From contig JAQVNC010000012.1 of NCBI GenBank assembly GCA_028703305.1, positions 1-32,277 on the forward strand: a stretch of 32,277 bases of DNA, in the 5' to 3' direction. Positions 5,009 through 16,532 of this stretch are shown piece by piece. Origin of the DNA: Patescibacteria group bacterium (GTDB lineage: Bacteria > Patescibacteriota > Patescibacteriia > Patescibacteriales > GWC2-42-12). The notes beneath the pieces were generated by a model. The model saw nothing but the letters and a program-made list of their open reading frames with translations, did no database searches and had not been told where the DNA came from. Each line of letters starts with the position of its first letter. The first letter of the stretch is position 1. The position numbers and the translations under genes are program-made.

Positions 5009-5069
5009 GCTTTGAAAAATTATTTTTCCGCTTAGACGAAATAATGTTTATCTGATTTTACCGCATGAT

Positions 5070-5170
5070 GCTTGAGCTAAATTTATAAAATTTTCTACTG
5101 CGGAACTCGGCCGCCTGCTGGCGTCCTCAAACAGTCCTCGCACGAAAATTTTACCAAATTTAGCTCAAGC
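5070..5170. repeat. Long palindromic hairpin element, copy 1
   Basis: This fills the 178-base gap between the genes ending at 5008 and starting at 5187. The outer arms, GCTTGAGCTAAATTT (5070-5084) and its exact reverse complement (5156-5170), form a 15-bp stem. Inside lies a second stem of AAAATTTTC against GAAAATTTT, then a conserved core with TTTTCTACTGCGGAACTCG on the left and ACAGTCCTCGCACGAAAA on the right, able to pair through TGCG/CGCA and ACT/AGT. The tip is CGCC-TGCT-GGCG (5112-5123). Copy 2 at 16410-16509 shares the core but has different, still self-complementary, outer arms and tip. It could be a structured RNA, a REP-like DNA element or an mRNA-processing stem. No T-run follows, so it is not a standard terminator. 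Confidence 0.85.
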
Positions 5171-5186
5171 AAACTTTTAAAATATT

Positions 5187-16382: not shown

Positions 16383-16409
16383 AAAAGTTTTAGCTATCGG
16401 CCACATGAG

Positions 16410-16509
16410 ATTTGGGTAAATTTAATAAAATTTTCTACTGCGGAACTCGACCGAGATTACTCGGCCTCAGACAGTCCTCGCACGAAAATTTTACAAAATT
16501 TACCCAAAT
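16410..16509. repeat. Long palindromic hairpin element, copy 2
   Basis: This occupies most of the 150-base gap between 16382 and 16533. It shares with copy 1 the left core TTTTCTACTGCGGAACTCG and the right core ACAGTCCTCGCACGAAAA. The outer arms are different: ATTTGGGTAAATTT (16410-16423) and its perfect complement (16496-16509). The tip is also different but still pairs, CCGAG-ATTA-CTCGG (16451-16464). The total length of 100 bases is almost the same as copy 1 (101). Conserved core with changed but still complementary stems suggests that the fold matters. No coding frame or T-run terminator is visible in the rest of the gap. Confidence 0.85.
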
Positions 16510-16532
16510 TAGATGCCAAAAATAAATTATTT

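Follow-up and report, generated by a model that had tools for sequence, protein, structure and literature searches.

Two hairpins of about 100 nucleotides lie in the window, the whole 32,277-nt stretch of Patescibacteria DNA analysed here. They hold the same core between arms that differ from one copy to the other, and each is followed by a glycosyltransferase gene. What kind of element maintains a fixed core within changing, self-paired arms: an undescribed structured RNA, a REP-like element, as the sequence-only reading had proposed, or a palindrome that replication keeps up passively? We addressed this from the anatomy of the two copies, from their relatives in the host genome and beyond, and from the genes and strands with which they are associated.

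Anatomy and folding of the window copies

Both hairpins were confirmed by sequence at the positions, and with the core blocks and tips, originally reported for them (Table 1), and sequence and folding together confirmed outer arms of 15 and 14 bp, each paired with itself. We refer to the + strand of the window (CTACTGCGGAACTCG ... CTCAAACAGTCCTCGCACG), which is sense to the neighbouring genes, as strand A, and to its complement (GTGCGAGGACTGTTTGAG ... CGAGTTCCGCAGTAG), the better folder, as strand B. RNA folding of strand A gave -43.5 kcal/mol for copy 1 and -40.1 kcal/mol for copy 2 (z of -7.2 and -7.95, with 0 of 200 shuffles equally stable), while strand B reached -49.2 and -48.6 kcal/mol, respectively. 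An internal loop in the core, GUUUGAG/CGAG, was considered as a kink-turn. As read from the sequence, the U run of an intrinsic terminator is missing 3' of the hairpin on strand A in both window copies.

Table 1. Parts of the two hairpin copies, in window coordinates
Feature	Position	Strand	Basis
Copy 1, whole hairpin element	5065..5175	- (B strand)	112.2 bits with covariance model R1; BLAST family
Copy 1, left arm TGCTTGAGCTAAATTTATAAAATTTT	5069..5094	+	read from sequence; pairs with 5145-5171
Copy 1, core, left block CTACTGCGGAACTCG	5095..5109	+	near-invariant columns in alignment A1
Copy 1, tip hairpin, variable, self-paired	5110..5125	+	folding; helix 3 in covariation analysis
Copy 1, core, right block CTCAAACAGTCCTCGCACG	5126..5144	+	sequence; alignment A1
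Copy 1, right arm	5145..5171	+	sequence and folding
Copy 1, flank motif CCGCATGA (family consensus C[TG]ACAT[GT]AAG on A)	5061..5068	+	alignment of copies
Copy 2, whole hairpin element	16405..16514	-	112.9 bits with R1
Copy 2, left arm GATTTGGGTAAATTTAATAAAATTTT	16409..16434	+	sequence and folding
Copy 2, core, left block	16435..16449	+	sequence
Copy 2, tip hairpin ACCGAGATTACTCGGC	16450..16465	+	sequence and folding
Copy 2, core, right block CTCAGACAGTCCTCGCACG	16466..16484	+	sequence
Copy 2, right arm	16485..16509	+	sequence and folding

Radical SAM and methyltransferase genes lie upstream of the window copies, two glycosyltransferase genes lie downstream, and the claim that a glycosyltransferase gene follows each copy holds (PF00534/GT4 and PF13231 PMT_2). 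The association is incidental, because other copies precede rplF, valS, pgk, ruvA, lexA, cysS, murB and many more genes (names from protein sequences). One copy sits between rpsH and rplF.

A dispersed family in the host genome and its relatives

The window copies are not a chance pair, since the host genome (G000; 925 kb, Patescibacteria) contains the element at 24 places by BLAST and at about 26 distinct places by R1, a covariance model built from 42 copies. The model also identified at least 27 and at least 16 distinct places in the congeners G001 and G003, and eight copies in G002 that constitute a subfamily with its own arms and with outer inverted ends GAACTCAT...ATGAGTTC; it detected 0 copies in three other genomes of the host family (G004, G005 and G009). 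The sequence-only reading had looked to such a search for many intergenic copies, which were recovered, and had taken a lack of relatives elsewhere as evidence against it, an outcome excluded by the copies across the host genome and other genomes.

Several variants of the element were also observed. In a 168-nt form in G008 (L399-L404), the tip has given way to a longer insert, itself conserved, that contains CTGGCCACGAA...AGCTAGCG. The conserved core of L051 and of L427 is interrupted at GTTCC/GCAG by a GC-rich palindrome (CTGCCTGCCGGCAGGCAG type), and at L014, before cysS, the element is adjoined downstream by one copy of a widespread repeat, CATTGCGAGGAG...GCGGCAATCTC.

Compensated change in arms and tip

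In an alignment of 42 copies (A1), 94.1% of cells were paired, and 26 of the 42 stem pairs displayed two-sided change. Compensated cells numbered 202, compared to 54.5 in shuffles, a control uncorrected for the relatedness of the copies, and at most 55 in slid controls. These pair counts uphold at the family level the covariation of the stems first suggested by the two window copies. The core helix is near-invariant and therefore gives no covariation, which is carried by the arms and the tip. Compensated changes are also seen directly when orthologous copies of sister species are compared (L004/L427, L018/L415 and L422/L440).

Turnover of sites among close relatives

Of 25 sites in G000, the 79% complete genome of G001 has a copy at only 2 to 4. 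At the murB site, a congener has a 4-bp gap compared to ~130 bp in G000, with TAAT on both sides, and this one site supplies the evidence for target duplication; the valS site is empty in the same congener. At the rplF and pgk sites, sister genomes retain the left flank and left arm without the core or right arm. These one-armed sites are most simply deletion remnants, because no solo arm lacking the core was found in G000 when up to one mismatch was allowed. Collectively, the patchy presence of the element and the turnover of its sites make a mobile, non-autonomous, REP-like repeat most likely.

The one-armed sites in G001 and G002 had also prompted the idea that the arms derive from the target, with insertion copying the target as an inverted repeat, which was ruled out by the lack of core-less arms in G000. 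An arms-only palindrome without the core, AAATGGGCTAAATTTATAAATTTAGCCCATTT, is present at L246:1500-1530 in G001 and is probably a core-deleted copy. In addition, the rpsH-rplF gap of the ribosomal protein operon contains different palindromes in different relatives (L021, L194, L195, L196 and L205).

Orientation relative to replication and choice of strand

GC skew over the surrounding 8-32 kb was used as a proxy for replication direction. All 23 of the G000 copies examined have strand A as the positive-skew strand, as do 64 of 69 host-family copies (two spurious fuzzy matches left out), and a test of this polarity on 63 of 68 copies gave p = 8e-14. The positive-skew strand is taken as the leading strand, and thus has the same sequence as the lagging-strand template. 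This orientation is as expected if entry occurs into single-stranded DNA at replication forks, and polarity relative to replication, with use of the lagging-strand template, also characterises the single-stranded DNA mechanism of IS200/IS605 elements. Outside the host family the pattern differs, with no polarity seen in Nitrospirales and a non-significant 34 to 21 in other phyla. Among 51 copies between co-directional genes in three congeneric genomes, A is the sense strand in 48 (48 to 3), gene direction and skew being confounded in most cases. L005 and L007 of G000 are antisense to both neighbours yet concordant with skew, while one G012 copy follows the genes and not the skew; the few discordant copies lean towards replication over gene direction. 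Alternatively, the polarity could result from differential loss, if palindromes with the more stable fold on the lagging-strand template were lost more often.

When the arms alone are considered, B folds better in 35 versus 10 family copies and in 97 versus 43 copies elsewhere, and G-U exceeds A-C on B in every set (35:14, 76:58, 12:6 and 11:3). The excess within the host family is mostly inherited, as its distinct G-U and A-C positions number 14 versus 13. These data provide moderate evidence that the folded form is a single strand of B polarity, either DNA or RNA, and the B-strand folding bias speaks against the mRNA-sense strand as the target of selection. A function at the mRNA level in the host was accordingly rejected: the orientation fits, but the sense strand is the poorer folder, and the exceptional copies tend to follow skew.

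Recurrence of the core in unrelated phyla

Unrelated bacterial phyla share the core, GAGGACTGTTTGAG-[tip]-CGAGTTCCGCAG. In GTDB genomes, the pattern GAGGACTGTTTGAG-N(2-30)-GAGTTCCGC matched at least 116 stretches, with carriers among Proteobacteria, Bacteroidetes, Lachnospiraceae, Coriobacteriia, Nitrospirales, Myxococcota, Omnitrophota, Gastranaerophilales and Patescibacteria. Because the search demanded the exact core, its invariance in these matches is by construction; the informative part is that, across phyla, the arms and tips are wholly different yet self-paired. Copy numbers are as high as 65, in a Myxococcota genome; Niveibacterium has 25 copies, and the complete chromosome of a Nitrospirales member (G344) has 14. 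The reversed pattern produced 0 matches in the carrier genomes and in 287 Patescibacteria, only 3 of which contain the exact core pattern. Neither BLAST of plasmid, phage and E. coli collections with one tip variant nor an exact-core scan of viral contigs found the core, searches that rarer forms may escape, and carriage by plasmids or phages was rejected on these results. No match to any of 4227 Rfam covariance models was obtained, which dismisses a known RNA family, and no paper describing the core was found in the literature searched by sequence strings and topics.

On the Nitrospirales chromosome (L326-L338), the element is a sharp-ended unit of ~215 nt in which the core hairpin is followed by a GGTCCTTTTGCCGAAACAAAAGGACC hairpin and then by CGTCGTGCGGGGGCGAAACCCCGCA; the CGTCGTGCGGGGGCGAAACCCCGCA part resembles a CGTC-type REP, and a GTAG-like hairpin lies upstream in some copies. 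In Gallionellaceae and relatives (L074, L076, L083, L123, L133 and L154), copies form inverted pairs, spaced 1.1-1.7 kb, with one or two accessory genes between them. These genes include DUF3800 and a marginal match to DUF2971, and the arrangements could represent mobile gene cassettes.

Search for a mobilising enzyme

No mobile-element gene family recurs beside the copies, where mostly housekeeping genes recur, and a 17-locus cluster considered as an autonomous partner consists of spurious ORFs inside the repeat itself. Of 30 carriers, 15 lack Y1_Tnp (PF01797), among them G012, with 15 copies by pattern, and the complete chromosome G344, and there is no core near the Y1 loci of the host family. 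A requirement for Y1/RAYT mobilisation was rejected on this evidence. In the search for a Y1/REP-type transposase that had been proposed from the sequence, the host genome showed one RAYT-like gene. The RAYT-like gene scores 27 bits against NF047646, whose cut-off is 80 bits, and lies 38 bp from a contig end, so that its surroundings are seen on one side only.

RVT_1 is absent in G344, G330, G345, G267, G011 and G010, and a requirement for reverse transcriptase, as in SINE-like retroelement mobilisation, was rejected since several carriers are missing it. G000 has a reverse transcriptase gene (RVT_1) at C26:3938-4609 (L349), which may belong to a diversity-generating retroelement. The copies may have been mobilised in the past by an enzyme since lost.

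Comparison with known elements and alternative explanations

The hairpins behave like REPs or single-stranded DNA miniature elements, yet fail the tests of a REP tag and transposase. As with REPs and REPINs, they are short, dispersed, non-coding intergenic palindromes with variable arms, single or in inverted pairs; in contrast, they are ~100-215 nt long, have a conserved core inside the stem and lack a foot tag. The foot or loop near the core is GTAG, GGAG, GTGA or CGAG in the host family and CAGCC in other phyla, and only in G000 is a 3' flank of GT[AC]G frequent. REPs are mostly lineage-specific (PMC3733652, PMC6006769), whereas the present core spans phyla. Di Nocera et al. described REP dimers inside longer palindromes, as well as CGTC REPs without a dedicated transposase (PMC3733652), and it is this situation that the present family most resembles. 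Miniature elements derived from IS200/IS605 have subterminal hairpins and polarity relative to replication (for the general mechanism, PMC6006769). The polarity is likewise present in the host family and absent in Nitrospirales, but the element is one hairpin rather than separate left- and right-end hairpins, has no identified fixed cleavage site and requires no TnpA in its carriers. Like MITEs, it is non-autonomous, palindromic and multi-copy, with inverted outer ends in the G002 subfamily; its ends vary wholly between subfamilies around a conserved centre, opposite to the pattern of a MITE, and the conserved terminal inverted repeats of TIR-type MITEs are not seen. With respect to anatomy only, its conserved part lies beside the tip and not at the foot, in contrast with integron attC sites.

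Three further accounts have to be weighed against a mobile repeat. A classical REP mobilised by a RAYT (Y1) transposase would explain the dispersed palindromes and inverted pairs and the single RAYT-like gene of the host, but that gene falls far below its cut-off, no GTAG/CGTC tag is fixed at the hairpin foot across hosts, half of carriers lack Y1, no core lies beside Y1 genes, and the core is common to several phyla. Membership in the REP/RAYT class is thus not borne out, and this account appears very unlikely. Template switching, in which replication copies one arm from the other and the repeat is a passive by-product whose fold is unselected, has been described for RNA hairpins (PMC8794818). 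It would account for the runs of neighbouring compensated changes between orthologues (AA to GG with TT to CC), for entire tips exchanged between orthologous copies and for arm-only remnants at orthologous sites. However, it leaves the spread to new sites and a sequence-conserved core common to unrelated phyla unexplained, and many covarying pairs display several different pair types. As an explanation of the whole family it is improbable, and template switching, which the sequence-only reading had also named as an outcome that would count against it, may contribute to the upkeep of the arms.

The last account is a functional structured RNA, with B transcribed, or A within mRNAs, and the copies kept by selection. 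The better folding of B-strand arms, the excess of G-U over A-C on B in all sets, and the sharp ends and three hairpins of the Nitrospirales copies are consistent with this possibility. Conversely, the family G-U excess stems from few recurrent positions, B is antisense to the flanking genes, Rfam has no match, copy number is variable and sites turn over, and we consider such a function unlikely. Of the two natures offered by the sequence-only reading, the dispersed, REP-like one is thus retained, whereas a functional RNA in mRNA does not agree with the weaker folding of the sense strand.

A probable mechanism and its implications

Based on the data presented above, the hairpins are probably a non-autonomous, REP-like mobile repeat, with a core recognised in trans and entry in one polarity at replication, an explanation we favour with some reserve. 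From the observed family, structure, compensated change, patchiness, site turnover and strand polarity, we infer a single-stranded intermediate and recognition of the hairpin. One DNA strand would fold into the hairpin, and a trans-acting factor would recognise the conserved core (on the B strand, GCGAGGACTGTTTGAG-tip-CGAGTTCCGCAG) in the folded strand. The arms and tip would need only to pair, and could drift in compensated steps. In the host family, new copies would enter in one polarity, most simply into the single-stranded lagging-strand template, and would collect in short intergenic gaps. Against this mobile repeat stand the lack of a mobilising enzyme among the genes searched, the absence of copies from plasmids, phages and viral contigs, which is unusual for a mobile element, the polarity results outside the host family, the confounding of gene direction with skew, and a target duplication from one site.

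The hairpin repeat family is real and widespread, and apparently not previously described. REP-like repeats are normally lineage-specific and tied to a RAYT. More tentatively, the family could be an overlooked class of bacterial non-autonomous element, in which a cross-phylum hairpin core is the sole conserved part and movement at replication forks depends on an enzyme that is neither Y1 nor reverse transcriptase. The orthologous copies with compensated changes offer a natural test of selection versus template switching in the upkeep of palindromes, and the combination of one core across many phyla, compensating arms and a locked replication polarity points to an as yet unnamed mobiliser.
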